From assembly GCA_020055645.1 (NCBI GenBank), contig CM034546.1, positions 31,186,001 to 31,250,000 of the forward strand: a stretch of 64,000 nt of DNA, given 5' to 3'. Source of the DNA: Tomocerus qinae (taxonomy: Eukaryota; Arthropoda; Collembola; Entomobryomorpha; Tomoceridae). The translations under genes were made by a program, and so were the position numbers. Within the stretch, counting starts at the first letter, position 1; each line of letters opens with the position of its first letter. Below are positions 2,966 through 62,082 of this stretch, piece after piece. The notes under the pieces were generated by a model, which saw only the letters and a list, made by a program, of their open reading frames with translations, searched no databases and was not told the DNA's origin.

Positions 2966-3130
2966 TACCATGGAACTGTAAAACCATCAAATCAAATATT
3001 ACTCCGTCAGCTTTAGACTGATAACTGCGACGTAAACATACATAATATTATTATAGTAAGCTAACTAACACTCCTACATAGTATAGCAAACTAAAAGGTT
3101 GCTGAATAAAAGTAAAACTCAAAAGCCAAA

Positions 3131-4405
3131 ATGTTGACCATTCACATGAAAAGATCGTTCAGGGATTTGAATTTTTTGCTGGGGAAATTTTTGTTTTATA
3201 ACTTCGACAAGAAAACTCGTTGCTATGTGATAGAAAACAAACGAAGAATAGCATTTGGCTTCTTTCAAGCAGTGAACATCTTTTTGTTGACAGTGAACGC
3301 ATTGTCATGCATTTGGAGGACGATTCGGGATTGGGACGAGGAAGACCCGCAATTCGAAATCGTATTCCATTTCATTATTGTGGCTATTTACGTCATAACT
3401 CTGGTCTGCTACGCTCGGATCTTTATCGATCGCAAAGAAATGGCAAATATTTTCAACGCTGTGATTATTCTTGATGAGCATCTGGAAGGTAAGATAATTT
3501 CTAATATAATTGCCAATTAAAAATTAATTTTATACTACTAATAAACAATTAGTAAACTTTTTTTATTAGTAAGCTGAACTATTTTTTTATAATTGGCAAA
3601 TTATAGTATTATTATGTAATTTTTTTGGTAAAGAAAAATTTCCAATGGAGAAAAAATGTACATGAAGACAGTTGGACTGGACGTCGTCGGTTTGTATCTG
3701 AGAGTGACAGTTGCATCACTAATGCCAATAGGATTTTTGTTTGCGATAAACGAGGTCATCGATCATCGGAGTGCCCATTTGAGAAAGGATCTAACGAAGT
3801 TGATTGGATATCCGGAATATTATCTGCATCCGGTCGTCCGTATCATTACTTTCATCTATGTCTTCTTCACATCGATGGGAATCAATGGGCCAGTCTTCAT
3901 GATTCTACTCAGTGGAATTACACTGATACAAGTAGAAAACTTCTGGCTTACTCTATTAAAACGGAACAAATCATTTAGCTACAAAGATGTAATTGCATTC
4001 CGGTCTTTGCATTTAGCAAATAAGATGGCCAACAATTTCCTCAAGCAAGTCTCCTTCATTCTCATCCTCGTAGCTCAAGTAATAGGAGCCAGTTGCTTCT
4101 ACAGTACAATCAAATTGTATGATATCATCCCGATGCCTGCCTTTGCAATGTTTCCCTTTCTGGGGATTATACTCATGGGCTTAATCGGAGGGCTTGTTCC
4201 TCGCGGAGCCAAAATCTATCAAAGCACGACAGGAATCAAGAGGATTTGGATGAATCATCATAATTTGAACACAAGGAAATACGGATACTCAATGACCACG
4301 TTTGGGATTCACATTGGCGACTTCCTAATCATCACCCGTGAGACTACTTTCGAATTCTACGAACTCCTCATCAACAACATCATCGACCTTCTCCTAACCT
4401 TTTAA
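3131..4405 (+). CDS. Seven-helix chemoreceptor (gustatory/odorant receptor-like)
   Basis: Two exons, 3131-3488 and 3651-4405, encode about 370 residues. The donor is GGTAAG at 3489; the acceptor after 3650 is the one that restores frame (phase 1), giving LDEHLE-EKMYMKTV across the junction. Several hydrophobic segments follow, beginning with FQAVNIFLLTVNALSCI near residue 45, and the protein closes with a helix after the motif RETTFEFYELLINN. Length and multi-helix layout suit the arthropod gustatory/odorant receptor superfamily, ligand-gated channels of sensory dendrites. It lacks the TYhhhhhQF signature seen in the receptor at 58541. The gene at 31385 has the same phase-1 intron and a related C-terminus, so the two are paralogues. 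Ligand unknown. Confidence 0.72.
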
Positions 4406-6220: not shown

Positions 6221-7802
6221 ATGTTGCAAATGTGTATCTTGCTTTTCGCCGTAAAGTTGACTATAGGATGGAAACTGGCAGAAGTGGTTCATTTTGAGAA
6301 GAATTGTTACATTAATTTAATTCTGCCACAACGTGCTTTAAATATACAAGAAGAACAATTAAATGACGAATTACAAAAATTAGACGTTCCATTCGCATAT
6401 ACCAGACTCAGTCCCCAGAAGAAAAGTAAGTTCTGCCTGTCGAAGAAGGTTCTGGTTGAACCTCAATCCTTCTCATTATTTTCTGATGGTGTCCCCGGTT
6501 GTATGGTGAAGTTAGATCGAATGAACATAAGAGTATCGTCACCATCTATAATTAGCCGTTTTACCTGTGTACAGAATATTGTATTTAACTATCACCCAAT
6601 GGATATAATGGACGTCATGCTGATAAATTATATTACTGAATCTATCTCCCATAAACAAATTATTTTTGAACAACAAAAAATGCCTTTATGGTTTAGATGG
6701 TATAATTTTGGCGAACATACTTCTGTTTACTTGCTCGTGGAAAAAGAAATGTTTGATTTGGCAAAGTCAAATTCTAATTTCATTGTAGATATTACAGAAC
6801 GGGATAATGAAAACGCAAACTTTATATACCATCTCTTGTGGATGAAGCCCTGGCTCTTAATTCCAATGTCTGGTGAAAATGACTCAAGAGTATATTTCTT
6901 ATGCCCGCAATATAACTCTGGACAGATTCTGAAACTCTATTTACGCTACACATATTCCCTTTTGCCATTATGCTCTGGGAGTTTTTGTTACAGTCAATCA
7001 CCATCAACTATGGCCATGGAACTATTTATTGAGGAAAGCTCCGTTGCAAAGACAGCTATCATGATAATTGATGATGATTCTGTTTCTAAGGCAGATGATC
7101 GCAGCAGTTTCTGTGGAAAGCCACTTCTGAATGTTTATTTTACAAATTATGTTTTCAGTGATGAATATGGAGTGGCAATTCCTATTTCTTCAGCCATTCT
7201 CAAAAGGTTTCCCAATTCAACAATGTTAGTGCACGGAGAAGGATCTGAGAAATGTTTAAAAAACTCGCAAAACGTTGGAAGAATGTATTTCAACAAACAT
7301 CGGCAATTGGAACTAAATTTTCACAATTATTTCTCGCCAATTGTAACAATGGAAGATTCTATCAATTTCATTTCTTGTGTCGTATTGGAAGATGAGAGCC
7401 TGTCGTTTTACGGATACATTCGACCGTTTCAACCATACGCTTGGCTAGCTATTATTATCTCGGTATTTTCTACAATTGGTTTCGTCCACGGTGTAACATT
7501 TTGCAAAAAAGAGAAAAGCATTCCTTTCTGTTTGATTTGCTATGCTTATTTGCTAGAAGTCAGTTATTCATTGTCAACTGAAGCCAACAAAAAAGTTTGG
7601 CTGAAATTATTGTTGGGTCCATTGTTACTTATGTTCATTGTCCTCACAAATGGGTACAAAGGAATTGTCATTTCCGATATAATCGATCCACGTCCAGTAA
7701 AACAAATAGAATCAATTGAACATTTGGCTAATCTGTCTGATATTTCAGCCGTTGGCATATTTTATGAGGCTAGCGAATTCAATCCTTTTGTTACTTCAAT
7801 AT

Positions 7803-8266
7803 ATTATGAGTCTGCCGCTGCTCTACTGTAGTAACAGCAAACTCATAATAATTTTAGGGAATGTGGATGTAATGTTGTATGTGTATTACTGAATATTAAA
7901 TAATAATATAATATGAATTATGATTCAATGTATCTCGGGGTTAGGTTTCGTGCTTGCCCAATCAATCCAATTGCCAATAGACTTCCGTAGTATAGTTTAA
8001 AGAAAGCACAATTTAATATGACAGTTACTTAATTGACAAAGATCAGAATTGAATTTAGAATGTAAGAAATACTGGAGAAGACGAGGTTCTCAGTGTTGGT
8101 GCAATGGCTGACCGAATGGAAGTGTAGGCTGAAGCTGAGCAGCATGTCGACTACTACGACAATTTGTATTTCCTTTGCTGGAAGGAATGTTAGGGTGGAG
8201 GGAACGGCGCACTAGACTGTTCGCTCCTTTTAGTGTATGAATTGTGGGGAGCTCTGCTCTCTAACA
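7803..8266 (-). repeat. 3' LTR of the retrotransposon
   Basis: In element orientation the LTR begins TGTTAGAGAG (8266 downward) and ends CTCATAAT at 7803. It is almost identical to 12165-12629. Confidence 0.9.
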
Positions 8267-8279
8267 TTCTCCTCCCTCG
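8267..8279 (-). other. Polypurine tract
   Basis: On the minus strand GAGGGAGGAGAA directly precedes the TGTTAG start of the 3' LTR. This is the expected place for the plus-strand DNA primer of an LTR element. Confidence 0.75.
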
Positions 8280-9109
8280 AACGAGGACATCTTCGGATGG
8301 ACGACGTGAAAAATCTGTAGTGTAGACTTTAGAAATAAATTGCAAGGGTTTATAATTAAATCAAGCATTTCAATCAATTTGGTTAAGTCGTCACATTGTA
8401 ATGTTACTTTTTAGACATAATTTAGAAATGTAAATCAGATTTTAAGGTTTGAAAAAGGAAACAAAACAATTTGGTATATAACATTTAAAGGTAGTCAATT
8501 AGAAATGTAAAGATAATTATTGTCAATTTGTTCAGATGTTTGTCACAGTGATAGCAGTCATTAACATAAAGAAAGGTCAACATTGGTGTTTCGTGCTGTT
8601 TCTGGAACTGATGGTATATATGACCAAATAATACGGTACAATATACGTTTGACAGCTTTATAGACTTGAGGATGTTGTTTCTGAAATGACAATGCACTAG
8701 AAAATTTGATTAATCTGTCTCTTTTGTTAGTTTTTGTTTAGTGATTGTGCTGTAAGAGAGGAAGTAACATTAACCTAGAGATAAAGATAGGACTATAGCT
8801 AATTTCAACTTTAGTATTAGTAGCTGAATAGTAACGAAATACAAACACACGATAGATAAGATTTTAATTTTCAGGTAGCCGAATCGAAAGATTTTATGAT
8901 ATAAGGTAAGCAATTATTTTGAACAAAATAGTCAATAATGACATTGTCAAACACAAAGTTAGTCAAGTGTATGAGCCTGGTTCCTGACATTTATGTATGT
9001 CGGGATGAACATTAATGTTCAACCCGCACCTAAAAACATAATTAGTATTTGAATTTAATTTTCACCAAAATATTCATTGTTAATATTAGAGGTCGGATGC
9101 AATATCCTA

Positions 9110-9330
9110 CTCTGGGTGCGAGTGGTTTATATACCAGCTGCACTACCTGTGAGAAATGCTACAGGATTTTTAATTATCTACTATCTGTGCGAGTGATTTA
9201 CTACTATCAGCTGCACTACCTATGAAGGGTTAAACCGTTATAGGATTTTAACTATTTATATGTGCGAGTGATTTACTATTATCAACTGCACTACCTATGA
9301 AGGACTAGGCCGTTATAGGATTTTTATACA
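9110..9330. repeat. Three imperfect tandem repeats in the retrotransposon
   Basis: Three units of about 60-70 bases share GTGCGAGTG(A/G)TTTA, CAGCTGCACTACCT and TATAGGATTTT. They lie between gag and the 3' LTR, where pol would normally be. Function unknown. Confidence 0.7.
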
Positions 9331-9498
9331 ATAATTACAATTTATACAAAATTTCCATTCTAAATTGCATTGGTTGTCGTGTGAGACTAAATCTTCCTCT
9401 CCTATATATTCCATACATGATGATATGATAGCAATTAGGCGAATGTACCTAAAATCTGGCATGTAAATGTTATGTATTAATTTATATCTGTGTGAGAA

Positions 9499-10971
9499 TT
9501 AAGATGAAAAATAGGGATGCATTTCCCTGCCATGATTGTTTGATTTACCACTAACACCATCCTGAGAATTATGCAGATCGTCTGTTAGTGTTTCTGCTTG
9601 ATTTGATATGTTGTCTCTCTGCTGCGAAGAAGACCAAGTAGTACGGTCATTGTTGTGTTGTGACGATGACCAAGTAGTACGGTCATGATAGTGATGAGGA
9701 GTCGGAGCTGCACAAGTATTACGATCGTTGAAAGGCTGAGAAGTCGAAGGTTGACAATTATGGTAGCAGTTTTCGTTCGCTGATGTTGGCCAAGTATTAC
9801 GGCCGTCATCATGAACGAGTGTCATCATAACTCCATATGTATTTGGACAGTCTGGAGTAGCATACCCAAAGCCGGTGCATTTTCTGCATTTTACGTCGTA
9901 ATTCGGATTGTTAGCGGGGTTGCGAGAGTTTGGTGATGAGTGAGCACCTCTGTTTGACTGTTGTCTCGAGTTATTATAACGCTCGCCTCTGTTGGTGTTA
10001 GAATTAGAATGATTAGTACTATTATTTTGTATATTATTAGGATTAGGATTATTATGATTTTTACGAAAATAGCCATTATTATTATTATTATAAGGACGAC
10101 GAGAATTGAATCGCCCTTTGAAGCTTTCTTCGGAGTCAAAGAAGGTATTTTCTTCTTCACGGGGATTTTCATTATGGTTCTGAGGGTGGTCTGAAGAATT
10201 TTGTTCTCGAATGCGCTTATCTGCTTCTTGCTTGGTTGCTGGAGGAAGACCTGCTTTATATCGTTCTTCGTCATGTAGATTCTTTAAGGCAATTGTAGCG
10301 GATGTAATGAGGTCATCGGCAGTGAGAAATTGTATGTTGCTGACTGCCAGTCTTAAGCGAGGGATAAGGCCGTCTCTTGCTCGGTTGACGGAGACGTCCA
10401 AGGCTTCATTTGGATTTATTTGTTTAGCCGAAGTGACCATGTCGTAGACATATGTCTCGACAGCTTCGTTAGATTGTTGGCGTCTTGTGTACAGAGTTCT
10501 TTTCCTTTCGTTCTGAATAGTCGGTGAGTCGTATTTTGCATTAAATATGTCTCGGAATTCATCCCATGTCGCTATTTGATTCTTGATAAGGTCGTACCAC
10601 TGTTTATTTTCATTAGCTAGAATACTCGGAATTAGATTAAACCATCTATTTCGTTCATAATGCTGAGCTTGGAAATAAATTTCGACATCATTTAAATAAT
10701 TATTAGCTGTGGTAGTTTTAGGATTGTATTGAGGTATCTTTAGGTTAGGATTAGGAGCATTAATGATAACGTGTGTGTCTCTTTGTGGAGGCTGAATGTC
10801 TAGACGATTTTGAATGTGACCTGCCTGTTGGATTTGACCAGCTAGTGGTTGTGCGTTATTGTTACGTACTAATATTTCAACTGCTTGAGCAAGATAGTTA
10901 TTTAACATTTGTCTACGCTCTTGTGGAATGATAGCTTGCAATTCATCAGGTAAATCAGGTAAATTATCCAT
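9499..10971 (-). CDS. Gag protein of Ty3/Gypsy-like type
   Basis: A 490-residue frame starts at the ATG at 10971 (MDNLPDLPDELQ); the open frame reaches further up only through a TTG at 11004. Residues about 85-250 hold the retrotransposon Gag fold core, recognised by WYDLIKNQIATWDEF and FNAKYDS. A long Asn/Ser/Arg-rich tract follows, then one degenerate zinc knuckle, CRKCTGFGYATPDC, in which the usual histidine is tyrosine. The C-terminus carries short repeats of DRTTWSSSQ type. The product would coat the element's RNA and build virus-like particles in the cytoplasm. No frameshift signal or downstream pol is seen, so this is the only protein of the element. The frame is intact. Confidence 0.85.
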   Translation of the reverse strand: MDNLPDLPDELQAIIPQERRQMLNNYLAQAVEILVRNNNAQPLAGQIQQAGHIQNRLDIQPPQRDTHVIINAPNPNLKIPQYNPKTTTANNYLNDVEIYFQAQHYERNRWFNLIPSILANENKQWYDLIKNQIATWDEFRDIFNAKYDSPTIQNERKRTLYTRRQQSNEAVETYVYDMVTSAKQINPNEALDVSVNRARDGLIPRLRLAVSNIQFLTADDLITSATIALKNLHDEERYKAGLPPATKQEADKRIREQNSSDHPQNHNENPREEENTFFDSEESFKGRFNSRRPYNNNNNGYFRKNHNNPNPNNIQNNSTNHSNSNTNRGERYNNSRQQSNRGAHSSPNSRNPANNPNYDVKCRKCTGFGYATPDCPNTYGVMMTLVHDDGRNTWPTSANENCYHNCQPSTSQPFNDRNTCAAPTPHHYHDRTTWSSSQHNNDRTTWSSSQQRDNISNQAETLTDDLHNSQDGVSGKSNNHGREMHPYFSS

Positions 10972-11916
10972 ACTGTGGTTAGAATAATTAGAATAAACTG
11001 ACAAAAATATCTGGTGTAGTTGGACGAGAGTCCGAAGTAAAGATAGTAGAAGCGTTTTCCCAATTTATTAACATCAACTGCGTTAACTAGCTCTTAACCT
11101 CTCACTATGTCTTCTTTCTACGCTTCTATCCCTCTCCATGCAAAACTATCTAAATAATTAAGATAATTATTCAAATGTGGAGTGGAGACAGCAAGGTAAG
11201 TAAAAGACGAGATAATTGTTAAAACTTTGTTGAAAAATAATTATACTAGTAAGTAGGTAGCTTTAATCAAGGTAAATGAAAATTACTGACTGTGATAATA
11301 ATATTATAATATCGTCTCCATGATTGGACAAATGAATACTAAAAATAGCATTGAAACAAAATGTTCGATAGATAATGTATGTAGGCGAGGAGTAATTATG
11401 CTGATTGAGGAATAGGAATGGAATGTTCTGAAAGTTCGAGGTCATTGGAAGGAAGGTAGGCGTATTTTTTGGAAAATGTCTGCCAAGTATTACGGCAAGC
11501 GTAGGTAGGTAGGGGTTACTTGAGACAAATAGTTTAGAAAAATTTTGTTAGATTTTTTGAAAATGAATGATATATTAGTTAATTTCACTGAACTGGACTG
11601 AATAAAATCTGTATCCGTTCATGACACAATAGAAAAGTGTGGTTGATAAATCGGATGTATTTTATAAAAACAATTGAGAATTAAATAAATGTTCGACACC
11701 GATACAAATTTTATATTCAGTCAGTGTCATAGGCAATTCTTTTGGAAAAATTTTGACAAAACCATACGTAATGAAATCAGTGTGAATTACTTCTGATAGA
11801 GAAATAGGTACCATACTAGATAATAATATATTGTGTTATTTACCGATTTAGTTAGATATTTGTAGTAGAAATTGAATAGCCAAGTGTTACAGCTCGATGA
11901 AAATTGGAGATCCAGT

Positions 11917-12062
11917 AAGTCAACTAATACGACTTATTTTGATGATGAAGGATAAGTCAAGTATTGCGACTTATGTCGATGGATGATGAAGGATGCCGTA
12001 AGTCAACTAGTGCGACTTTGCGACAGATGACGATAACGAAGACAAGTCAACTAGTACGACTT
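11917..12062. repeat. Four 19-base imperfect palindromes in the retrotransposon leader
   Basis: AAGTC-AACTAGTAC-GACTT and three close variants occur at 11917, 11954, 12000 and 12044, between the primer-binding site and gag. Each can form an AAGTC/GACTT stem. Confidence 0.65.
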
Positions 12063-12148
12063 GTAGTAGTAGTAAAGATGAATCTTCGTTTTTCTTCAAT
12101 TTTTTCACTGAAGACGTCTTGACAATGGAGAGATTGAAAGCAATTTAT

Positions 12149-12160
12149 CGTTGGGCGCCA
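12149..12160 (-). other. Primer-binding site
   Basis: On the minus strand TGGCGCCCAACG lies four bases inside the 5' LTR. Binding sites of this form are complementary to the 3' end of tRNA-Lys in other LTR elements; the tRNA assignment is from memory of that pattern. Confidence 0.8.
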
Positions 12161-12164
12161 CTTT

Positions 12165-12629
12165 ATTATGAGTCTGCCGCTGCTCTACTGTAGTAACAGC
12201 AGACTCATAATAATTTTAGGGGAATGTGGATGTAATGTTGTATGTGTATTACTGAATATTAAATAATAATATAATATGAATTATGATTCAATGTATCTCG
12301 GGGTTAGGTTTCGTGCTTGCCCAATCAATCCAATTGCCAATAGACTTCCGTAGTATAGTTTAAAGAAAGCACAATTTAATATGACAGTTACTTAATTGAC
12401 AAAGATCAGAATTGAATTTAGAATGTAAGAAATACTGGAGAAGACGAGGTTCTCAGTGTTGGTGCAATGGCTGACCGAATGGAAGTGTAGGCTGAAGCTG
12501 AGCAGCATGTCGACTACTACGACAATTTGTATTTCCTTTGCTGGAAGGAATGTTAGGGTGGAGGGAACGGCGCACTAGACTGTTCGCTCCTTTTAGTGTA
12601 TGAATTGTGGGGAGCTCTGCTCTCTAACA
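12165..12629 (-). repeat. 5' LTR of the retrotransposon
   Basis: A 465-base repeat, the promoter-bearing end in element orientation, nearly identical to 7803-8266. It is followed by the second AATAT duplication and then by the rest of the receptor gene. Confidence 0.9.
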
Positions 12630-13802
12630 AATATTTCTTCAAAAGATGATTCTTAAGTGGTATGATTGTTATAAAGTAAATGATACTACTATACCCCGAA
12701 TTAGCAATCCAATAGATAAAAAAGTTACCCGCGTATGTAATGATTCATATATTAAAAAAACATTCGACCAAGTTAACGAAAGTACAACCGAAGTAGCTAT
12801 TGCGCATTTTTTAATTGCGGCGGACTCTTGTGTTTTTGAACTGCAATGCTGGCTAAGACATTTATATGATGATCCATTATTAGTTAGAAACTTAGCATCA
12901 CAAGCAATTGAGAATATACACAAAAAATTCTATACGCTACCTGGACATGCTTATAACAATCCACAAAAATGGATTTCAGAATGTAATAATTCTGTATTGA
13001 TTGCTAAGAGCTCTCATTTGCATCGATTTCTAAACGATTCTCTTTGGAATCCGGAAAGTGGAGGAATCCAGCCCAAAAAAACTTTATATCGTGGAAAAGA
13101 CATTAATTTCTTGGCAATTCCCATTTTCGCAATAATTTCAAGTGATAAAATACCATTGATGACTCCGTTTCTAAAAAGAAATTTGTTTGCAGCCAGCCAT
13201 TCTGGTATTTTCAATATCTGGGTCGACAATTTCAGAAGACATAACTTTACGGAATGTAAAACCTGCTGGGACAATTCCCCTCGACCTGTGTCATTCTACA
13301 ACTCGAATGTGTTTACTATATTTTTTATTGCCTTGTGTGTTTCCTTGCCTTTTACATTAACATTTCTGTGGGAGATCAGAGTTTTCATAAAGGTTGCCCT
13401 AATTACATATATTTCAAGCATTTTTCATGATATTACTAACTTAATGTGTCTTAGACCCGTCAAGACTAAAAAGCTTGCTAGGTGGTTTGTAGGGTGAGGT
13501 GCTCTACTCTAATATGAGGGCTTTTAGGCTTGTCGGCGTCAGGCCCTACTACAAAGCAAATAGAGGAATAAGCTTGAACTAGCGTTTTACGTTAAATTGA
13601 GTAGCTACAATAAAATTTTTGGCGTCAAATTGATTAACATAAATCAAAAGAAGGTCAAATTGAAATCACGGAGGTTTCTTTCAACGGTTCACCCAAATGC
13701 CTACCAGGGTCGCAAGTGTCAGACTTTCCAACTTGACCTCCAACAGAACTCACAAAAAACGTTGGAGGATACACATGTAACGGCTTTCAAAATTAGGTTG
13801 GA

Positions 13803-13937
13803 GTAAGGCAGTGGTTACACAAATACCCATCAATGTAATTGTTTTAATTGGGTTAGGTTAGGTCCCTCGAAAGCGGGTCCTGGCATTCTTTGTGTATTTC
13901 ATGGCGCGATATTTTAAATTGGCAACCACTGTCTTAT
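13803..13937. mobile_element. Small TIR element, family with copies near 16571 and 60344
   Basis: Ends TAAGGCAGTGGTT and AACCACTGTCTTA form inverted repeats about 130 bases apart. The body has GGTTAGGTTAGGTCCCT. Related copies are at 60344-60475 (complete) and 16571-16650 (left part only). Confidence 0.7.
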
Positions 13938-16359: not shown

Positions 16360-17000
16360 TGTAATAATAATGCTTTACTATAATAATAGTTTTCTGAATT
16401 TCTGATCATAATCTTCTGAATTTCGATTACAACGACCCGAATTTACATCAATGTGTTTATGTCGCTCGTCAGTGATTTGCATGAAATATCTTTTCATTGG
16501 TGGACGAATTTTGCTTGTAGCCAATAGGATTACAGATTTTTATGACAACATATTGTATAAATTTAGATTGAAGTAAGGTAGTGGTTGCACAAATACATAT
16601 CAATGTTATTGTCTTAATTAGGTTAGGTTAGGTCCCTCCAAATCGGGTCCTTTCAAAATGAGAAAAGAGTAGACCCTTCTCAATACTCTTCCAAATTGCG
16701 ATCTCTCACTAGATAATGGGATCATCCCTATCACGTGTCGTTGCTTTGCAACTGATAGTGTATAGGGATGATACGCAAAGGGAAGGCTTTCATTCAATTT
16801 TGTGTTTTTGCGGTGCCGGGATGGAAGGGACATTCATATACAATGATTACATAATTCTTACCCCAAATGATAATAATATTTTATGATAATTGTAGAAAAT
16901 AAAACAATTACATTGCGTTATTCAGATAAATTCATCTCCTCTATATAGGAATACACTTTCTGTCTGTGTCTGTCTGTCTGGTTATCCACATTCACGATAC

Positions 17001-21120: not shown

Positions 21121-22127
21121 CAAAATGCTTTTTGCTTTTAAATTTAATGCGTTTGCTCTAGATTCATCTATAGAAGAAGAGTTCATTGGTCAAGAACCTT
21201 AATTGAAACATTGGCCAAACCATTTTAGAATAATGGTATATTTGGATTAATGTTAAGCATTGTGTTCCAATTATTGACGTATGCCATTATAATGATTTTT
21301 GGATAGAAATAATTGTCACACAATGTGGAACAAGAAGAAATGAACAGACTAAACATTTACCAAACCTTTTTAAAATAATGGTATATTTGGACAAATGGAA
21401 GTCATTAAGAAAAGATGTATCATCTACGAAAGAAGTTTTTAAATGATTTAGTTATCGGTTAATCACGTTATGTTACTTAATATAAGCAAATAAACCTTAA
21501 TTAAAATTTAATTAAAGTGAAGAATCATTATGAAGGATTTTGTAATAGATTTGTGATTCGTGAGCTTCCCGACATACACTTCCGTTACCGTTTTAAACGC
21601 TCCAACAAAAAACTAAGAGAAAAACAAGATTAAAATGGTAAAGATAATAATGAATTTCTTAGTCAAATTTCATTAAAATTTACTCAAAATTTTGTACAGA
21701 ACAAAAATTGGTTACTACAGGCAGCTCAGCCGATCAGAGACCAGTATATAATCACATCAATACTCTTCAATTCACAAAGCAATTTATTGGTCATGGTCAT
21801 GGTTGTAAGTAATCGGCCAGAGTTATCTGTGCCTTACTTTAGAAAATTAAACGTGAATCCTACTAATCCTATTCTTATTAAATAAATATCCCCCGTGGGG
21901 TGCTTTATGGAAATCAAATAAAATCCATCTACCAATGAAAAGAGATTTTTTCGAGAATTTTTGTTGCTACTGCAAAATGCCGAACTTGCAGTACTAATCA
22001 AATAGGATTTTTGTAAAGGTACTATAGGGGATACGTGTATAATTATTTGTATTTTTTTATTTCAGAAAACTTGATCGAATAGGAGAAGAAAGGTTCACAA
22101 ATACGTAAGCTATTTGTAAGAGCCAAA
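21121..22127. other. Upstream flank of the transposase relic, nothing recognised
   Basis: AT-rich sequence without a recognised gene. The left end of the transposon probably lies here, but I could not find a matching inverted repeat on the other side. Confidence 0.45.
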
Positions 22128-25100
22128 ATGGGCCGGGACAATTTTCGCCGAAATTGTTCAAAATTAAGCAGGAAGGGCAGAAGCCGGATTGCAAATGCAT
22201 CAAAACGGCTTCTAAAATTACAATCTTTGGAAGTTTTGAATTCCAGTCCAAGTTTCTCCCAGCTTGTGACAACTTCGCACCTCTCTGCAACACTGACAAG
22301 ACCAATCTCAACACCTATGATAAGTCCAATCTTATTACCTATAATAAGTCCAATCCTTGCATCACCAATGACAAGTCCAAACCAAATAACACTAATGACA
22401 AGTCCAAGCCATGCAACACCAACGACAAGTTCAAACCATGCAACACAAATGACAAGTCCAATCACTGAAACAATAAGTCCAGAAACGTTTAAGATGACCA
22501 CTCCATCTAAAGACTATGGCCACAAGAGGCACCAAGACCCAACCCATAACTATCAGTTTGAGAGTGTATTTATAACAACTCCAGTAATGCCATTAATTAT
22601 AGAATACGATTCTCCAACAAATCGTCGAGAAGGGCTTACATATAAATCTCCGAACAAGCCATCAACTAAAATACCTGAAGGATGGCGATTTTTTACGATA
22701 CAAAGCATAGAAAATGCTATGAATAAGTCCGCTCATCATCGAGGAGTATGTACAGACGCTCAATTTGACATCGTCAAAGAACAAAACGATGGATTGCTGT
22801 CCAAATTCAAGGTTCAGTGCCGGACATGCAATATCATAGCTTTTCAATTTGATAATGACCAGGGAAGAAGACGCTACCAATCAATGACACCATTCATTGG
22901 GCAACATACTCAGCAGCAATTTCCTTTACAGCACTAGATACTGTTTGCTCGATTTTTGAAGTTCCGTGTATTTCAAGAACAAAATACAGCAAGTTAGAAT
23001 CTACTTCTTTTCATGAAACATTAGAGGGCGGCTTATTAAACATTTTGCTTGAAAACGGAAGAGAAGAGTATCAACTTGCTCGTTCCTTGGGCCAAGTTGA
23101 GACAATAAAAGTCAACAATGAAGTAAAGAGGTTGCTTATACAGATGTTTTTGGGGATGGACAGTGGGGAAAACGTTGCTATAATCAGACTGGAACTGCTA
23201 AATCAGGAGCAGCAGTGATTATCGGCACACTGTCCAAAAAGATTCTATTCGTTGCAGTCCGTAATAAATTTTGTTATGTATGCGCTTTGTGCAAAAGTAA
23301 GTCACTCCCATGTCCTGAACATCAGTGTTACCTAAATTGGACTGGGTCGTCTTCAGCAATGGAGACTGATATTATTAAAGAAGGTTTCACTAAAAGTTTG
23401 GAGATGCATAATCTAATTTACAAAAGATTCATTGGAGATGGAGACTCCAGCGACTTTAATTCTATCCGAACGGCTTACTTAAACCATGACACCAATTTCA
23501 TTAGCGTAGAGAAGATTGAATGTAAGAATCATGCAATCCGTAGAATGAATTTCAATCTGCATGCAATACTGAAGCCCACAACAATTAACTATCAATTGCG
23601 ACGACTTTTAGAAGAAAGAATAGGAATTTTTGGGCGAAGCGTACAGTATCTAATTGAACATCACCAGAGCAATATACCTGTATGCAACGCCTCAACTTTG
23701 AAAAAAGACATTCTGAATATTCCCTGCCACGCCTTTGGTGAACATAAAAATTGCAAGGCTTATTACTGCGACCCAATAACACGAAAGTTAGTAAAGCCAG
23801 ATAAATTCAAAAACAAGGACGATATCTCCCAATCGGCTCCAGCTAAACCGAAACCAAATGTATATAGAAAGATTAAGAACACCAACATATGGCCATGCAT
23901 AATGAAACCCATAGAAAGAATATCTGAATTATCGGTTTCATTAATATACAACATAACAACCAATGTTGCTGAGAACTTCATGTCTCAGGTCAATAAAGCT
24001 TTGCAAGGTCGGAGAATTAACTATAGCCATAGAGGAGGATATAATCGTAGAATTGCTTCAAGTGCATTTGCATCCCAGTTTGGCAGAGGATGGGCAGCCC
24101 AATTGTTTAGAAATACTTACAAAATGTCTCCTGGTGATAGGTGGAAAAAATTAGAAACAGACGGCAAGAAGGACAGACAAAAGAAAGGAAAACCCAGATC
24201 TCGAAGAAGATTGACTTACCCAAATGAGGAAAAAGAGGAGTTTCTATCTAAACGACCCATAAGTGGAGACAGTGATTACGGTCCAAATGCAAAAAACGCT
24301 GACATTTCAGATGTTGATCTACATGTAAAGGTTGAAGATCTAATTACCAAATGGAAATGTGATCTTACTAGGCAACATGACATAGAAAGACGAACTGTCA
24401 ATCAATTCAACAACGAGGAATACCGTAGAATCAAATTGCATACAATTACAGCAAGTTTGGCAAAAAGAGTGTATAAAATGAACTCGAGTACTTCAAATGT
24501 TTCACTCTTAGATGATATATTAGTTCCAAGTGAATTAAATAACATTGAGGCAATAGCTCATGGAACAAGGCATGAAGATACTGCCAGGGAAGCATATAAT
24601 GTCTTAAGAAAAGCCAAAGCAGAAAAATGTGGTCTTTTTTTATCTTTAGAATGTGGCATTCTTGGAGCTTCACCAGATGGATTAGTAAAGGCCGACTCCA
24701 TTACAGAAACTCAAGATGGCATAATTGAAATAAAGTGCCCTTTCAAAGAAAAAGATGTTCATCCTTCAGATGTTTCAAAAAGAGATAAAGATAAATTTCT
24801 TGTAGAAAGACCTCAAGGAGAAAGAAAAAAAGGAATGTCTAAAGTGATGCTGAATAGAAATCATAAATATTACAACCAAGTTTTCATGCAATTGCATGTT
24901 ACAGAAAAGCATTGGTGCGACTTCATTGTCTGGACCGAAAAAGGCATCTTAGTTGACAGAATTATAAGGAATCAAGAAACCTTAAATCTTTGGGAAAAGA
25001 TGAAACCCAAATTGATTGACTTTTTTAAGCAAGACTTAGGACCTGAACTTGTTGATTCACGGCGTGACAGAGGAATGGGATATCGACAGCCCCCACATCG

Positions 25101-25275
25101 ACTATTAGCCATAAGAGCTGCTCAAGAAAAAAGAGCTGACACTCAAGCTAAAAAAACTATTACAGCGCTCAAGACCAAAGTAGCGAAGCCATTACAAAAA
25201 GTAAAGGAAAATGTTTCTGAGGAAGGGCCCTCTCAGCGCACTAGACAAGCCGTCAATAGACTTCAATTAACTTGA
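22128..25275 (+). pseudogene. Mutator-like transposase with YqaJ-type nuclease domain, frameshifted
   Basis: Three frames continue one protein. 22128 to about 22862 gives a basic N-terminus, a Ser/Thr/Pro repeat tract and VQCRTCN; about 22859-23122 gives INDTIHWATYSAAI and onward; about 23122-25275 gives DGQWGKRCYNQTG, AAVIIGTLSKKILF and the rest. Homologous proteins of arthropod transposons run through these segments continuously, so there are two one-base frameshifts. The last frame holds ENFMSQVNKALQGRRINYS (transposase core), then a YqaJ/PD-(D/E)XK nuclease fold: GTRHEDTAREAY near residue 447 of that frame, GASPDGLV near 483, EIKCPF near 504 and YNQVFMQ near 552, with the Asp, Glu and Lys of the active site kept. 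It presumably cut and moved its own DNA; now inactive unless the shifts are assembly errors. Confidence 0.75.
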
Positions 25276-28860: not shown

Positions 28861-31384
28861 TAATAATATTATATTATGAAGAGAACATCAACTAAAATGC
28901 GTGTAATGTGTAACAAGACGATGGAGTGGAGGAGGGAGCCTTGTATCAATATCAATATTATTATTAACATATAACAACTAATGCGTTGTAGTGGTCTGGT
29001 AAAGGTAACATATACTAAGAGGTGTAGTGGCGGTGGAGGGCTGACGACGCCTTAGCTCCCAACAGCTCCGGAGCTCCAACAGCTCCAACGCCAACAGCTC
29101 CGGAGCAGTTGGGAAAGGTTTGGAAAGACTCCAAACTCATTTGACCCCATGCGCCTATGTGAGAAATCAACAAACTTCTTGAGGAAGCTTAAAGCTCCAA
29201 TCTCAAAAGCTCAAGCTTTTGATTTTTAAATGCGACACCTGGATAAGAAGCCAACACATGTATGAACGGAATAGCCTTAAGAACCAATTTTTAATTATCG
29301 GATATTGCCAAAATCCAGAATCCAGGTATACATGTAAATTAGAAGGTGTGTAAAGTGTAAACTAATAGTATTCATCTCCGCATACTCTACCATTGCATAT
29401 TGTAATAATGCAATATTCCAATACTTAACAACGGGCCTGTAATGATATTCTTAAATTATGGGTAATACTTACTTGTGCACTAAAGTAACTTACTAAAGGA
29501 TATTCCACCACCAAATAGATGCAAGACAAAATTGTTGGAAATGTTGCAGAATTTTAACTTGCATCTAATTCAATAACATTGTTTTCAGAAATGTTGCCGT
29601 ATATATTTTTCCGTTAACAACTAAAAGGTTCTCAAATGAAGCAATGAAATTTACCTATTAATACCTCAGAGTTGGTTGAAAGAGAGATAGTGATAAGAAA
29701 AGTCATGCACAGAAAACTTTACTTAATTGCTAAACCGTTAGGATAGGTACGTAGTTAGTAAGGTATGGTAATGGTATCTTGTGATAGATACTTACGACAT
29801 TGGGCCTTCAATAGTGAAGCAATAAATTCATATATAATGTCGATATTTGTGTTGTCTAAATTATTCAGTCGCCATCAGCAAAGGTCACATTCTCATTGTA
29901 TTCGTCATCCAATACCCACTTTAGTTTTATATTATATACTCCATACTAGATATTCCTAGGTTTTTACATTACTATCCAAGTTGATGATAAAAAAGACAGG
30001 ATATATAGGCCAGCAAGATATTTTAATAGGCATGCTTATTCAAATACATTTACTATTAATAAGGTAGTCAAAACCATAAATAAAATAAAAGTGCAGTAAA
30101 TTACATTACAGGTTTGACTGACTAATGCGGAAACAATATTTTATTTCTCCATTTTGTTTCACGATAAGGTAATCTATAATTTTTCCAAACTTGAAGGCCA
30201 GTTTAAAAATTACAATTTTTCTCAAAGGCAATCTATATTAAATAAACCGAAGACAATGTCAACCAACATATCTGTCCAACTTTCGGTATTTCTTCTACTT
30301 CTTACCTTACCGTACGAAAACCCAGCCACGTTGGCTTGGTGGAGCACTTGAATAGTCGTCTGACTATTCAATGTGAGCATCTACTGCCAGTTCGTGTCTT
30401 TGGCTGGGTGAAATGGCCGAGAGCTGTTTAAAGGCGAGTGTTTGAGTTGTAAATGTGGGATTAAGACAAATGTTAAGCACGAACCCGCAATTACAAGGGC
30501 CGTCCTATTGATACCTCGTATACGTGTAGTGTACGTAGAGTAGCTTGGATAACCTATCTTTGTTGGGCTAGTAGACTTCCGATAACAGTCCATGAACAGT
30601 GACTCGTAAATGACAGCCTTTGGCTTCTCGGGTATTAATTAACAACAATACCAGTGTTGAGGGAGTTGGCAATGGGCCCGTAAATAAGGCCTGCGACCAG
30701 TCCTATCACTTTTTAGTGAGGCAGTACAACCCATATAATATACATACAATTTATCGTTCCAAACAGAGATTAATTTAGTATGGTATATATTATACTTCCA
30801 GCTTAAATAATTGTAATGATTGCTATTTTACAACAAGAGTATATTTGTAGTAAGAGCTAACATTTGTCTTCGAAGGAGAAAGATTTTTACATCAAATTAA
30901 TATTTTACGAAACGTACTCTACACAAATTACCGAAATATAGAAGAGCTGCTTGAATTAAACACTCAGAATAAATGGGGGAATGGTGGCGCCCGTAGAACG
31001 GGCTTGTTTCTGTAACCCACTCTGACATTTAATATATTTTTACATAGGTAAGTTTCTTCATACAAGCAATGGCAATTTTCTCCAATTCAATTAAGTTAAC
31101 TCTAGGTTTTAAAGATGAAATACTCAGAAATATAATTAAGATTAACATGATGATAGGTACTTTATTAATTCCTTATATACCCAACTGTGCTTTCTATATA
31201 TACTAATCGCAATACAATATGTAAATGAATATCGAAATTGTTTTTTCTGGCTCTCATTTCTTCTATATTGTATTATATAATACTTCAGACATTTCAATAT
31301 TAGAAAAGCATCCAACAAATTAAGAACTTTGCCTGCAACGTATTATAAAACGTCTTTAGCCATATATAAAATTCGAACAAGAAA
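28861..31384. other. Intergenic, no gene recognised
   Basis: Mostly AT-rich. A GC-richer block at about 30330-30730 looks like a repeat fragment, and CAGCTCCGGAGC motifs cluster at 29060-29110. A hairpin around CCCGTAGAACGGGC lies at 30990. No gene supported. Confidence 0.5.
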
Positions 31385-32677
31385 ATGAATACCATTGGTT
31401 TTGAGCTTCTATTTAATCTAGAAAGATTTTTTCATATTTACGTTGACAAATTGTGTGCATCGCCGATTAATTGGTCACCGACGAAAAAATACTTCTATTT
31501 GGTTTCAGAAAAAACGAAATTGTGTATTTGGTTTCTATGTTTTGCTACTACTTTCCTATTAAATTTATTTGTAGCTGGCAACCTGATAATGCAAATATTT
31601 TCTCCGTCATTTTCTGTGGAGCAAATCATTCTCTATTTAATACTGACCATATTCTGTACGCCGTCTCAGATTTTCAATTGTATTCTATTCTTCAATAGAA
31701 AACATTTTTGCTACACTGTAAACAGTGTTTTAAAATTGGATAAGAAATTCTCTGGTAAGTTTTACATCTGCCGTATTATGATTTTTGTATGGTATTTAAT
31801 TTTTCATTTAGAAACCATTCCATTTATTGAGAATGTGATTGTACATTTTAAATTTGTCGCAGAATATCATCGTCGTCAATTGGAACACTGGAGCTTTCAA
31901 GAATTTAAAATTCTGGGGACGATCTTAAAACTAATAACTCTAATGATAACATCAGGAGGTATATTTTTAGGTATAACAACAGTGACTGTTCCTTTCAGCC
32001 CAATAGTGTACCTGTTGCAATTGTGCAATATTGATTATATATTAGTGAAATTTGTAACACTGCCATTTATTGTTATTATTTTATTGCACATATTCTTTCC
32101 CATGCTCTTGATGTTGTATTCAGCTATAATATATGCAGTTATAGTTGCATTTTGGTTAAACTTAATAACTTCACAAAATCGTAAAAATGGGGCATACTTG
32201 CTGACCAAAACATATTTTCAGCTTAGTCCGTTGGTTACTTTAAAAGTTTACAGTGCCCTAAGAGTTCTTAACTTAGATGTCAATTATTTATTAGTATATC
32301 CTGGCTCTCCAATGATTTTGTTTTTCGCTGGTCTTATGAGCATAGTATGTAATTTTGGGAGTGTAAAATTCTATAATATAATGCCATTTGGTGCGTATAT
32401 AATATTACCATTATTAAGTGTAGTATTATTACTGTCAGAAGCAATTGCAATTCCGATGGCTGCATTGGTCAATACAAAATCAATAAAATATATCCAGAGC
32501 TGGAAGACAAGCGAAAATAGAATTATTAGAAGAATGTTAAGAAGCTGCAGGCCTATGAGATATGATGTGGGTCCATTTTTTATCGTGAAGAGATCAACAA
32601 CAGTTACTTTTTTGGAAGCTGTAGCATTGCACACAATGAATATGGTATTGTGTGTTAAAATAAATCATATCAACTAA
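31385..32677 (+). CDS. Seven-helix chemoreceptor, paralogue of the 3131 gene
   Basis: The ATG at 31385 opens a frame to 32677. I place a 57-base intron at 31755-31811 (donor CTG|GTAAGT, acceptor TTTTTCATTTAG), giving 411 residues; the intron has a multiple-of-three length and no stop, so the unspliced frame stays open (430 residues). The position after the motif NSVLKLDKK and the phase (1) match the intron of the gene at 3131, which has NAVIILDEH there. The protein has about seven hydrophobic helices and ends GPFFIVKRSTTVTFLEA and a last helix, parallel to GDFLIITRETTFEFYEL in its paralogue. It is a probable ligand-gated sensory receptor of gustatory/odorant type; ligand unknown. No lesion seen. 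Confidence 0.72.
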   Translation: MNTIGFELLFNLERFFHIYVDKLCASPINWSPTKKYFYLVSEKTKLCIWFLCFATTFLLNLFVAGNLIMQIFSPSFSVEQIILYLILTIFCTPSQIFNCILFFNRKHFCYTVNSVLKLDKKFSGKFYICRIMIFVWYLIFHLETIPFIENVIVHFKFVAEYHRRQLEHWSFQEFKILGTILKLITLMITSGGIFLGITTVTVPFSPIVYLLQLCNIDYILVKFVTLPFIVIILLHIFFPMLLMLYSAIIYAVIVAFWLNLITSQNRKNGAYLLTKTYFQLSPLVTLKVYSALRVLNLDVNYLLVYPGSPMILFFAGLMSIVCNFGSVKFYNIMPFGAYIILPLLSVVLLLSEAIAIPMAALVNTKSIKYIQSWKTSENRIIRRMLRSCRPMRYDVGPFFIVKRSTTVTFLEAVALHTMNMVLCVKINHIN

Positions 32678-34984
32678 ATAGCTACAACATTGTGCTGCTA
32701 TTATAGCATAATTATTATATGTTGTGAATATTTTATGTACTCATAATTAAAGACCATATAAAGTTGATTGTTCCTATCGCAACGCTTAAACATAACACTG
32801 CCTTTATAATACACCGCCGTGTTTAAGGAACGAATCCCTATTATAAACAGGCCTGTGTATGATAATAAGTCGAAAAATTTCTCATGTATTGTGATTACCA
32901 GCATTTTAAGCTTTGTGTGCTAGTGGTTGCAATGCTTTTCAAACTTATTATTTAGAGACTGTCCTAATGCTCGCTTTACAATTTACAATTACTTATCCAT
33001 AAAATATTATAATTATAACAAATGCCGTCCTGCTCCTAATCAATAATCATCACTACTAATGATAATCATGTTGTTCGAGTTGCGCAGTAAAAATTTCCGT
33101 AGGTCGGTATGTTTGTTTATATCACCGTGTGTTAATTTGAAACTCTGTCTGATAACGTGCTAAAGAAGCTAAGCAGAACCCAATCTTAAACTCCTTGCCC
33201 ATTCGCATCACAATAGAAGGGTTAACATATTATTATGCACCGCAACTAATTAGGTGTTTCATAATAGTGTATGTGCACGCGTTCTGCGTACAAACAGTAC
33301 AGTACAATTAATGCGGTCTGAGGTCTGTTCTGTGCTGTGAGATATGATGATGAGACCTTCGTGCTTTTAGATGTTTCACGCATTTAATATTTCTATATTT
33401 TGATTCGCTTTTGTTTCTTAGTGACATAGCAATTGAGAAAACTAAAACTACTACTAAATTTAGTGTTTTTGTATATTATCACGTATTTAATGCTTTGATA
33501 GTTATATAGAATCACTTTTCTTTCCAAAAACTGGAATTTTTTTGGTTGTACTATTTGTACTTTTTAAAGTTCATCACCATTTTCTACAAGTGCTCACTGG
33601 TAAATACGTTTGAAGATTAAAATAATAATCTTTTATTTTATTATTTTTTTGAAAGTAAAACTTGGTAACTAACAACTAAACGGTAATGGACGACATTCAA
33701 TTTCAAAAAATTTAACTACTATCACGCATTTTTAATGCATCCCTAATTTGATTGTTTTGTTAGTGACATTGTAATCCGAACATCGAAAAACAGAGGGGGT
33801 AGGTTATTTTTTCAGGCGTCCCGACAGCCAAACAAAAATTGGGCCGACGATTAGAATTTTTGGTTTTTACGTATTTCTTTTACCCGCTAAAGTTTCAATG
33901 AAACTCATTTGGCACCCAGGCAACCATGTATGTCACCTGAAGACCTGTATAATATTTAGCGGGTAAGAGAATTATGTAAAAACCGAAAATTCTAATCATC
34001 GGCTTCATTTTAGTTTGGCTGTCGGGACGCCTGATAAAATAACCTACCCCCTCTGTATTTCGATTATCCGAAAAACTGAATCTGCTACTGACTGCGCTAT
34101 CCGTTGAAAGGAACACAAGACGTCTGTCACTTAAAAAATAAACCTGAAAGACCAGTCACACTGATATTGCCATCTGTCACACTTTGAATTCATCACCGTT
34201 ATCAACAAGGACTCATCGGTAAATTGAGTTTTGAAGGGGTAATAGACCAAATTTACTTTCAGAAAATGAAGTGAGCCTTTACGTCCACATTGAAATTCCA
34301 AGCAGAAAATTGACGTTTTTTCGGTTAGACAAGACAATTTTGGTGGGCCAACATAGATAGTCCACGTACTTTGTTCATAATATGTCCTACACAACTAAAG
34401 TGCCTAACCGTGAAAATGTCAATGAGACAAAAGTGCTCGAACGCATTTTATAAGTTTGAATAAAACTCATCTCCAAAATGCCCCCACCATGACCACGATC
34501 TATTTTCTCAGATCCGGCAGCACTTTTCTTTTTATAAATATCGTTATTTTATATCTAGGTTTAAATCAGAAAAGAGGCAAAAATAATGATGGGTGACTAA
34601 ATGTGAATATTATTGCTGAATAATTAAGTTAATTTTGCTGCAACGGTGGCAGCATTATTTTGTTTAGTTAAGGTATTATTTCCTCAGTCGAAAAGTGTTG
34701 TCATTTGTCATCAACCCAAATTTTTTTACTTTCCAGCAAATAAAAATTCAATTCTATAATATTCAACCGAAAAATGAGTAGTATATTTATTTGACGTGAC
34801 TCCATTTGAGTTGATAATTTTAACATACACCCACTATATAATACATCTATTTGTACTGCATTAAGTGTTATATTCTATTTAATAATTGTTGTATTTTTTT
34901 ATTTCAGGAACAGCTTTTTTAAAAACCACAACAAAATTTAAAGCAAGAATACTATTAAATAACCAACCGCTTAACGGTTACTTG
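32678..34984. other. Intergenic with one MITE
   Basis: AT-rich spacer downstream of the chemoreceptor. It contains the inverted-repeat element 33784-34063 and no recognised gene. Confidence 0.55.
33784..34063. mobile_element. Inverted-repeat MITE, about 280 bp
   Basis: Arms of about 110 bases begin CGAAAAACAGAGGGGGTAGG and include GGCGTCCCGACAGCCAAAC; they are inverted copies with a centre containing CACCCAGGCAACCATG. No coding content. Confidence 0.7.
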
Positions 34985-36020
34985 CCAAAAGCCAGGCTTG
35001 ACCTCTGAACGGTCCATTGCCAATACAGGCTAACTTGACCTCTAAACGGTCCATTGCCAATTTGGCTAACTTGACCTCTAAACGGTCCATTGCCAATATA
35101 TAGGCTAACTTGACCTCTAAACGGTCCAATGCCAATATAGGCTAACTTGACCTCTAAACGGTCCATTGCCAATATAGGCTAACTTGACCTCTAAACGGTC
35201 CATTGCCAATATATAGGCTAACTTGACCTCTAAACGGTCCATTGCCAATATATAGGCTAACTTGACCTCTAAACGGTCCATTGCCAATATAGGCTAACTT
35301 GACCTCTAAACGGTCCATTCCAATATAGGCTAACTTGACCTCTAAACGGTCCATTCCAATATAGGCTAACTTGACCTCTAAACGGTCCATTGCCAATATA
35401 GGCTAACTTGACCTCTAAACGGTCCATTGCCAATATAGGCTAACTTGACCTCTAAATAGGCTAACTTGACCTCTAAACGGTCCATTGCCAATATAGGCTA
35501 ACTTGACCTCTAAACGGTCCATTGCCAATTTGGCTAACTTGACCTCTAAACGGTCCATTCCAATATAGGCTAACTTGACCTCTAAACGGTCCATTGCCAA
35601 TATAGGCTAACTTGACCTCTAAACGGTCCATTGCCAATATAGGCTAACTTGACCTCTAAACGGTCCATTGCCAATATATAGGCTAACTTGACCTCTAAAC
35701 GGTCCATTGCCAATATACGCTAACTTGACCTCTAAACGGTCCATTGCCAATATATAGGCTAACTTGACCTCTAAACGGTCCATTGCCAATATAGGCTAAC
35801 TTGACCTCTAAACTTTCCATTGCCAATATAGTCTACCTTGACTTCTAAACGGTCTATTGCCACTTAAGGCTAACTAGACCTCTAAACGGCCCATTAACAA
35901 TACAGGCTTACTTGAACATTAAACGGTCCATTGCCAATACACCGGCTAACTTTACCTCTATACGGTCTATTGACAGTTAAGTTTAATTTAACCTCTAAAC
36001 GGTCCATTGACAGTTACTCA
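34985..36020. repeat. 37-41 bp satellite array, about 26 copies
   Basis: A unit including GGCTAACTTGACCTCTAAAC and GGTCCATTGCCAATATA runs through the whole kilobase. The middle is very homogeneous and the right edge (from about 35800) is diverged. Open frames on both strands here are by-products of the repeat. Confidence 0.92.
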
Positions 36021-48748: not shown

Positions 48749-49658
48749 GTATTTGACAAATAATTCTACAATTTAAAATAAATTATTGTCATATTTTTAC
48801 ATAATATTGTACAAAAGGATATAGTACCAAATCAATTCCTTATGGTACCATTTATTTGCTTTGTGATATTCTAATTTAACCAAAAATTAGAGTTAAAAGC
48901 TATTATATTGTACAATGTTCTTTAAAGCTATAATAGGTGTAAATGTTTTGGTAAAGTAAAAATAAATGAAATGATTGGCAATGCAAAGGTTACAGCTACT
49001 GATAACCTGGGAACTTATTCACTATGGTTCCTATTTCAAAATTTTGCTATTTCTAAGAAATTTTGGATTCAGTAAAATTGCTAAGTATTTCCAAAAAGTG
49101 AGACAATTATTTGCGATGCTTACTGAATGAACTTAAGCCTGAAAAAGTGATTAAGACAAGCTTGGGAGCAATTTTCGGACTTAATTCATAAATTTAATTC
49201 AGTATCTTTACTGAATCGAAGATGGCGACTTAAGACTGATTATTTGAGCAAAAAGATATGAATGGTCGGAGTTACCCTAAGTGTCATTGTGTCGATGGAA
49301 GGAAAAAGCAATATTGTTTGAAAAAATTTCCTCGGCATAAAATAAGCAATTTTACGTTGGTTTCTTCTCCACTGTTAAGGGTTTGGTTTTTAATTGGATA
49401 TCAATAGGTCTGGATGAGAAACTAACTATTTCGGTAAGCCTGTATCTACTTTTGTTCAAGAAATTTAACTACAACCCCACTCGTTTAACTACTTCCAACA
49501 ATGTAATTGCTCTTCATTAGCACAAGTACAGAAGCAATCTCTCTATCAAAAACCGTGATAACTCCAGTATTTAACTGTGACAGCTCCGGTTTAACTATTG
49601 TAATGCAATCTAATTAATTACTATAATGTAAAATAATATTTATTAAATAGGAAATTTA
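48749..49658. other. Left part of the large kinase intron, nothing recognised
   Basis: AT-rich sequence leading to the Harbinger transposase. The transposon's left end should be here, but I found no inverted repeat matching the right flank. Confidence 0.4.
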
Positions 49659-50765
49659 ATGGCACTACCATTGTTTGTGCTGCGTAATGAGCGAGAACGG
49701 GTGTACAAAAACAGAAAACGCTTGAATCAGTTGAGTCGATTCGAAATTCGAACAATGTTTGGAATGGACTATGTCGGCGCCAGAGAGCTAATTCATATAT
49801 ACTATCCCTTCCTCGATGGAATTCGGTCAACGGCGATACCAGTAGAGACTAAAGTTATGGGATTCGTTTCCTACTTACGATCCGGAAGTTTTCAGTGGTC
49901 TTTAGGCCACTTAACGGGGACATCGCAGACGAGCATGTCAAGAATCATTGCTGAAGCGACAGACATAACTGTACGAAAAATAGCCAAGAAAATGATAAAA
50001 TTCCCTCGAACTGACGAAGAAAAAAATCGAAATATTGAAGGATTTTACAACATGGGTGGCCTTCCCAATATTTTGGGAGTACTTGACGGCACTCATGTGG
50101 GAATGATAGGACCTCCGATGGATGAACCAATTTATGTAAACCGAAAGGGATTCCATTCAATTAACTGTCAAGTGGTGTCTGGCCACGATTATAGCTTTTT
50201 GGACATAGTGGCCAAGTTTCCTGGATCTACACACGATGCTTTTATATGGAGACAAAGCAGTGTGAAAAGAAGACTTGATTCAGGAGAATTTGGAAATGGA
50301 ATTATCTTAGGTATATTAAATGTATTGCTGTAATTTTAGTTTAGTGATCTAAACGCTTTGTATAATTCACAGCTGATTCGGGTTACCCCTCAACGGAACC
50401 AAAACTAATGATTCCCTTCGACAATCCTTCTACAATGGAGCAACGACAATACAACAAAAAACTGAAAACTACAAGGTCATCTGTAGAACGAAGCATTGGG
50501 CTTTGGAAATCCCGATTTCGGTCGATGTGCAAGTAAGAAATGCTGGAGCTGCCATTAATTCAATTAAGGGTTATCACAGAATTTCTATTTCATTTCTAGA
50601 ACGGGGGGTCTTGCCTGCTATCGTCCGGAAAAGCTTTGCAGACTGATTATTGCAAGTGCCACTTTACATAATATATGCATCAAGAAAGAAATCCCCATCC
50701 TAAGTGAAGATGAGGAGTACATGAATAATGTTATCATTCCTGACATAAGAGAATGGGACGTATAG
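49659..50765 (+). CDS. PIF/Harbinger transposase (HARBI1-like DDE nuclease), intact
   Basis: Three exons, 49659-50310, 50373-50532 and 50600-50765 (phases 1 and 2, introns of 62 and 67 bases), encode 325 residues without a lesion. A helix-turn-helix-like region (VMGFVSYLRSGSFQWSLGHL, TSQTSMSRII) precedes the DDE nuclease: the first Asp in GVLDGTHVGM near residue 142, the second in FPGSTHDAFIW near 190, and the Glu in SSVERSIGLWKSRFR in exon 2. The last exon has the family's CYRPEKLCRLIIASATLHNIC. It cuts and inserts the transposon, leaving 3-bp duplications in this superfamily. It forms a pair with the Myb-like gene 250 bases downstream. It is nested, same strand, in a 6.1-kb intron of the receptor kinase gene. 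Confidence 0.9.
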
Positions 50766-51010
50766 CTACTTGAATTCATTTGAATGTGGCGCTATGAAGA
50801 AATGTCCTTTGGTTTAGTAAAATCAAACATTTATACATAATATTTCTGTTTCGTTCATCCTTTTCATACTGTGTTCAACTCTTATAATATTATTTGGATA
50901 ACATTTCTTTGTCCAGGAGGCTTTCCTGTTACTTAAATAGTAGTTATTAGATTAACTTTGTAAGCAACACAGTGCCACGTTCTTTTTAAAAGGTAATTAC
51001 TATATCTACC

Positions 51011-53319: not shown

Positions 53320-53420
53320 CTGAAAAAACAGACAAATTTTTATACGGCCAATTAAAAATTTAAAAATTTATTAAAAACATCATTTTGCCTTAGCTTTTTC
53401 CATTTTAGAACCAAAAAAGG

Positions 53421-62045: not shown

Positions 62046-62082
62046 GTCACCATTGTAAGGGGAAATCGGGCACTCGTAATCT

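Follow-up and report, generated by a model that had tools for sequence, protein, structure and literature searches.

In the genome of the collembolan Tomocerus qinae two stretches of receptor-like coding sequence lie on either side of an LTR element, which raises the question whether they once formed a single gene, what kind of receptor this gene encoded, and whether the element is what disabled it. An earlier note on the same 64,000 nucleotides of DNA, which we refer to as the window, had proposed that a working ionotropic receptor (IR) was just inactivated by a complete LTR element. The features on which the question turns are the following.

6221 to 7802, plus strand: 5' part of the receptor open reading frame, codons 1-527 and the first base of codon 528, with a signal-like start, the N-terminal and S1-like part, an M1-like and an M3-like hydrophobic segment and the start of an S2-like lobe
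7798 to 7802, unstranded: left copy of the target-site duplication, AATAT
7803 to 12629, minus strand: LTR retrotransposon insertion of 4827 bp, apparently gag-only, antisense to the receptor
7803 to 8266, minus strand: left LTR (the element's 3' LTR), 464 bp
8267 to 8278, minus strand: polypurine-tract-like GAGGGAGGAGAA, adjoining the left LTR
9182 to 9324, unstranded: tandem repeat of 75 bp inside the element, on the downstream side of gag (element orientation) in a region without a long open reading frame
9502 to 11064, minus strand: gag open reading frame of 521 codons (490 if counted from its first ATG), with PF03732 Retrotrans_gag and a CX2CX9C knuckle
12149 to 12160, minus strand: TGGCGCCCAACG, resembling a primer-binding site and lying 4 nt away from the right LTR's inner edge
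12165 to 12629, minus strand: right LTR (the element's 5' LTR), 465 bp
12630 to 12634, unstranded: right copy of the target-site duplication, AATAT
12635 to 13497, plus strand: 3' part of the receptor open reading frame, from the rest of codon 528 to the stop, completing the S2-like lobe and containing the last hydrophobic segment

We joined the receptor flanks (6221-7802 and 12635-13497) by script, retaining a single AATAT. The joined frame comprises 2445 bp, corresponding to 815 codons including the terminal stop (814 amino acids), and contains no internal stop; codon 528, which is split by the insert, is made up of one left-flank base and two right-flank bases. The AATAT on both flanks of the insert is a perfect duplication with a one-base ambiguity at its left edge, and since a T precedes each LTR copy (7802 and 12164) a 4-bp AATA duplication is also possible. 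Based on base composition alone, an open frame of 814 codons has a chance of about 3e-26 (3e-17 for the 527 codons on the left and 1e-9 for the 287 codons on the right). The frame of the left half closes at a stop inside the left LTR (7829-7831) and the stop-to-stop frame of the right half opens at 12628, inside the right LTR. No more than about 30 bases thus separate the end of either frame from the junction, which is what an insert breaking one continuous frame should produce. Codon preference in the left half is highest in the receptor frame (0.171 versus a maximum of 0.123 among the five other frames), and in the right half it does not favour the receptor frame (0.105 versus 0.108 for one minus-strand frame). 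The two halves, the perfect duplication and the in-frame junction at codon 528 with no other lesion were thus all recovered as the earlier note had described them. Insertional disruption of a formerly open receptor-like gene that carries no other frame lesion is supported.

The insert has the structure of an LTR retrotransposon, with near-identical LTRs, a target-site duplication and correctly placed primer-binding-site-like and polypurine-tract-like stretches, the former of which we take to correspond to tRNA-Lys. A search of the window with ARAGORN (bacterial code) returned no tRNA genes. Alignment of the 464-bp and 465-bp LTRs gave 463 identical positions, one A/G substitution and one 1-bp indel, by which a G run differs in length, confirming that the LTRs differ in only two places. 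The right LTR copy contains inverted arms of 15 bp (12163-12177 and 12199-12213), the first two bases of which lie just outside the LTR, and in the left copy the substitution reduces these arms to 10 bp. As the full-length arms are those of the right copy, the substitution probably arose in the left one.

The gag frame matches PF03732 in Pfam (E 3.4e-6, 27.6 bits, cut-off 24.1), and its zinc-knuckle-like CX2CX9C carries a Tyr (9862-9864) at the position where a His is usual; a comparison of gag with phage records gave no match, as expected. Outside gag the only stop-to-stop frame of at least 100 amino acids in the internal region is one of 130 amino acids that overlaps gag. A Pfam scan of all 24 non-gag stop-to-stop open reading frames of at least 45 amino acids in 8267-12164 revealed no pol domain, a scan that would pass over heavily decayed, stop-riddled remnants. 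The insert therefore differs from an autonomous LTR retrotransposon, which has protease, reverse transcriptase, RNase H and integrase, and with two LTRs, one gag open reading frame and no pol found it corresponds to a gag-only, TR-GAG-like element. Unless pol has decayed past detection by Pfam, the predicted element is non-autonomous. Its description as complete accordingly holds for the LTRs, the two priming-site-like stretches and gag, and fails for pol. Apart from the element's own LTRs and internal repeats, the only match to it elsewhere in the window is 23 bp long (33694-33716).

How long ago the insertion took place was estimated from the single substitution in 464 bp of LTR, using substitution rates per site per year that are assumptions. 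At an assumed rate of 1e-8 the insertion would be 0.11 million years old (95% range 3 thousand to 0.6 million), at 3e-9 0.36 million years (9 thousand to 2.0 million) and at 1e-9 1.1 million years (27 thousand to 6.0 million). If the indel is treated as an event of its own, the upper limit at 1e-9 becomes 7.8 million years. The term "very recent" is thus fair on an evolutionary scale and loose as a date, the assumed rates allowing anything from thousands of years to about 6 million.

The intact frame bears on timing as well. Zero frame lesions place the loss of constraint at most 0.6-1.4% divergence ago (95%, for assumed indel/substitution ratios of 0.2-0.05), in agreement with the LTR divergence. 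The same numbers have to be weighed against the possibility that constraint on the receptor had been relaxed before the element arrived, in which case the element simply marks it. IR expansions are reported to lose members fast (PMC6938034, PMC6175461), as such a history would have it, and the divergence of one LTR substitution would in any event lead one to expect no more than 0.2-0.5 frame lesions, so that the lack of other lesions is consistent with recent loss and gives no tighter date. On the other hand, there are zero stops in 814 codons, and constraint therefore ended within at most about 1.4% divergence. We regard an earlier relaxation as improbable.

Having established the joined frame, we asked which protein it encodes. 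Neither receptor half gave a relevant match in Pfam, where the listed matches were to other families and below their cut-offs, or in a sequence search of the PDB. The silence of Pfam says little, because a clearer IR in the window (40067-42043), which matches the solved NMDA, kainate and delta-2 receptors with a best E of 4.2e-7, itself stays below the threshold of Lig_chan-Glu_bd (25.6 bits, cut-off 30). After the signal-like start, the joined receptor contains hydrophobic segments at residues 409-427, 459-488 and 753-771, a layout that appears compatible with the places of the hydrophobic segments in the S1 - M1 - pore - M3 - S2 - M4 arrangement of iGluRs and IRs, the test being coarse as the clearer IR yields only two segments at the same threshold. 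At the second segment lies NGYKGIVISDIIDPRPVKQIESIEHL, which by eye we take to resemble the M3-S2 linker of iGluRs. Compared with the window IR, the stretch from the second to the last segment appears to be extended by about 80 residues.

Direct comparison with this IR located the similarity in the left half. Receptor residues 331-527 gave a score of 96 (shuffle mean 55.6, sd 8.9) that was reached by 0 of 300 shuffles, a result that overstates the match because six comparisons were made and shuffling does not preserve hydrophobic clustering; BLASTP with the left half gave an E of 0.005 as the best of several pieces. When joined residues 331-814 were compared with residues 181-659 of the window IR the score was reached by 2 of 300 shuffles. 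The whole joined receptor matched weakly (25 of 300), and for the right half no resemblance to this IR was seen (151 of 300; BLASTP E 0.37). We also considered a possible IR start at 1-966 on the minus strand as a relative of the receptor and rejected it, as there was no significant match (BLASTP E 0.35; joined score reached by 13 of 300 shuffles, that of the N-terminal 330 residues by 35 of 300). At the DNA level the only match to the left half within the window is one of 33 bp at 51002-51031 (85%, E 0.002), and the coding part of the right half has none. Separate DNA matches at 16559-16651 and 60340-60460 correspond to the stretch downstream of the receptor stop.

The gene is thus likely to be an IR, with the left half carrying the support. 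The class assignment of the earlier note stands as likely on the hydrophobic layout and a weak match in the channel region, and is softened by the lack of Pfam and PDB matches and by a right half without similarity. These latter findings are also what would be seen if the two halves encoded a membrane protein of some other kind. The layout and the channel-region match to the window IR argue against such a protein, however, and the Pfam result is a weak argument in its favour given that the clearer IR is sub-threshold too, so that we consider a non-IR protein quite improbable.

Taken together, the locus is very probably explained by the antisense integration of a gag-only LTR element into codon 528 of a divergent IR-type gene that had remained open up to that point. 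The starting state would have been an intronless, divergent IR-type chemoreceptor gene encoding 814 amino acids in an open frame. As no pol was detected, the element presumably moved with the enzymes of another element, reverse transcriptase and integrase probably being supplied in trans by an autonomous relative. Integration in codon 528 would then have duplicated AATAT. Translation from the receptor ATG would now terminate at 7829-7831, giving a predicted product of 536 amino acids in which residue 527 is followed by nine residues read into the left LTR. This product would keep the first hydrophobic segments and lose most of the S2-like lobe together with the last hydrophobic segment. From the sequence we infer that the allele is null, a functional channel subunit being unlikely, and likewise that the gene belongs to the IRs, that mobilisation of the element took place in trans and that the gene had been functional up to the insertion. 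Of the proposal that a working IR was just inactivated, insertional disruption of an otherwise open frame has thus held up, and the receptor class and the timing are weaker than claimed.

A truncated product would not be the outcome if cryptic splice sites allowed the insertion to be excised from the pre-mRNA like a newly gained intron, and an altered receptor to be produced. A reported precedent is the 412 element in the Drosophila vermilion gene (Fridell et al. 1990, cited in PMC2586383), which, like the insertion described here, is an LTR element inside an exon, and 41 donor/acceptor pairs around the junction (donors ending at 7600-7828, acceptors at 12629-12759) keep the frame open. Unlike in vermilion, where the element is reported to be spliced from the RNA, the receptor insertion has no standout splice sites in these stretches: according to approximate scoring matrices, the best in-frame donor is equalled or exceeded by about 28% of the GT sites in the window and the best in-frame acceptor by about 25% of the AG sites. 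With no standout pair in the scan we rejected this rescue, which we regard as very improbable. An assembly error at the junction, or a somatic or minor haplotype, is more improbable still, since a chance mis-join would not be expected to yield a perfect target-site duplication together with correct LTR ends and matching frames.

We return to the disrupted IR-type gene and to the question whether the disruption is shared by all individuals. The earlier note suggested that populations may still carry an empty allele; the age range derived from the LTRs does not by itself place the insertion young enough for polymorphism. That intact and disrupted alleles segregate, or that the antisense element is spliced out as a new 4.8-kb intron, is a joint possibility to which we give a modest chance, judging it rather unlikely. 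If either were true, the fate of a chemoreceptor allele would be observable in a living population.

With regard to the element, the closest counterparts in print are the TR-GAG elements, which have two LTRs and a single GAG open reading frame without pol and are described in plants (PMC8704663). In Arabidopsis ddm1 a TR-GAG element of the ATCOPIA63 subfamily has been seen transposing, with a similar element that may be autonomous suggested as its helper (PMC8704663). The element in the receptor shares the organisation of this group, i.e. two LTRs, one gag open reading frame and no pol found, and differs in that it sits in an arthropod genome; the TR-GAG literature among the matches listed concerns plants only, judged by title or journal. 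Non-autonomous LTR elements as such are in print for insects, namely PbTRIM of the ant Pogonomyrmex barbatus, which is described as small and as lacking functions required for moving alone (PMC3532108), and elements of Culex (PMC3286476). The element described here resembles them in being a probably non-autonomous LTR element. That the disrupting element appears to be gag-only is of mild interest.

With regard to the receptor, among the matches listed we found no published description of an LTR insertion in an IR, judged by titles and the beginnings of abstracts. Loss of IRs by single lesions is well described. For Campodea augens 901 of 2,424 mostly intronless IRs are reported as pseudogenes, the majority with a single mutation (PMC6938034), and for Blattella germanica 393 of 897 IRs, with single mutations dominating among the chemoreceptor pseudogenes (PMC6175461). 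In the latter species one OBP that is broken in the assembly is reported to be polymorphic with an intact version (PMC6175461). Like the members of these expansions, the gene described here is intronless, probably of IR type and open apart from one disabling lesion; unlike in those cases, this lesion consists of an entire LTR element. IR pseudogenes that are young and carry one lesion are thus common, and the locus fits that pattern as an ordinary event that is well documented by its sequence. The locus does not reveal a new pattern but supplies a further, clean case of a well-described one, namely chemoreceptor loss caught at an early stage. Its cause, position and approximate age are legible in the sequence, and one PCR would suffice to score the alternative allele.

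One edge of the long terminal repeat (LTR) of the gag-only retrotransposon that splits the receptor, a putative chemoreceptor open reading frame of the ionotropic receptor (IR) type, carries inverted arms, which measure 15 bp at the right copy (12163-12213) and 10 bp at the left copy (7802-7850), the arms of the latter being shortened from 15 to 10 bp because of the single substitution between the two LTRs. Three tandem arrays were also found in the window:

34997-36009, tandem array, unit of about 37 bp
53418-54472, tandem array, unit of about 230 bp
62082-63552, tandem array, unit of about 464 bp

The unit of the array at 62082-63552 equals the LTR in length, and BLAST gave no match between this array and the LTR at E 0.01. 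Downstream of the receptor stop, the stretch at 13789-13936 belongs to a dispersed repeat, about 90-140 bp long, with two further copies in the window at 16559-16651 and 60340-60460 (87% and 72% identity).

A single frame at 23122-25275 (+) combines a Mutator-like transposase (PF20700, 8.8e-58) with a YqaJ exonuclease domain (2.8e-16); upstream of it, a separate ORF (22083-22937, +) matches an N-terminal Mutator fragment slightly under the cut-off (1.3e-5). Another ORF (49647-50333, +) encodes a DDE_Tnp_4 transposase (4.2e-13).

A possible gustatory-receptor-like gene with two exons is located at 3116-4405 (+). Its first ORF matches 7tm_7 under the Pfam cut-off (4.2e-5), with a donor-like AAG/GTAAGA ahead of its end, and the second has no 7tm_7 match in Pfam. 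Two more long single ORFs (31370-32677, +; 58891-60057, -) appear hydrophobic and receptor-like by eye, Pfam returning no significant match for either. The start of a possible additional IR-like gene (1-966, -), continuing beyond the window edge, has no significant similarity to the receptor. The sequence with which the receptor was compared is the single-exon IR at 40067-42043 (+), which comprises 659 aa and matches solved ionotropic glutamate receptors.
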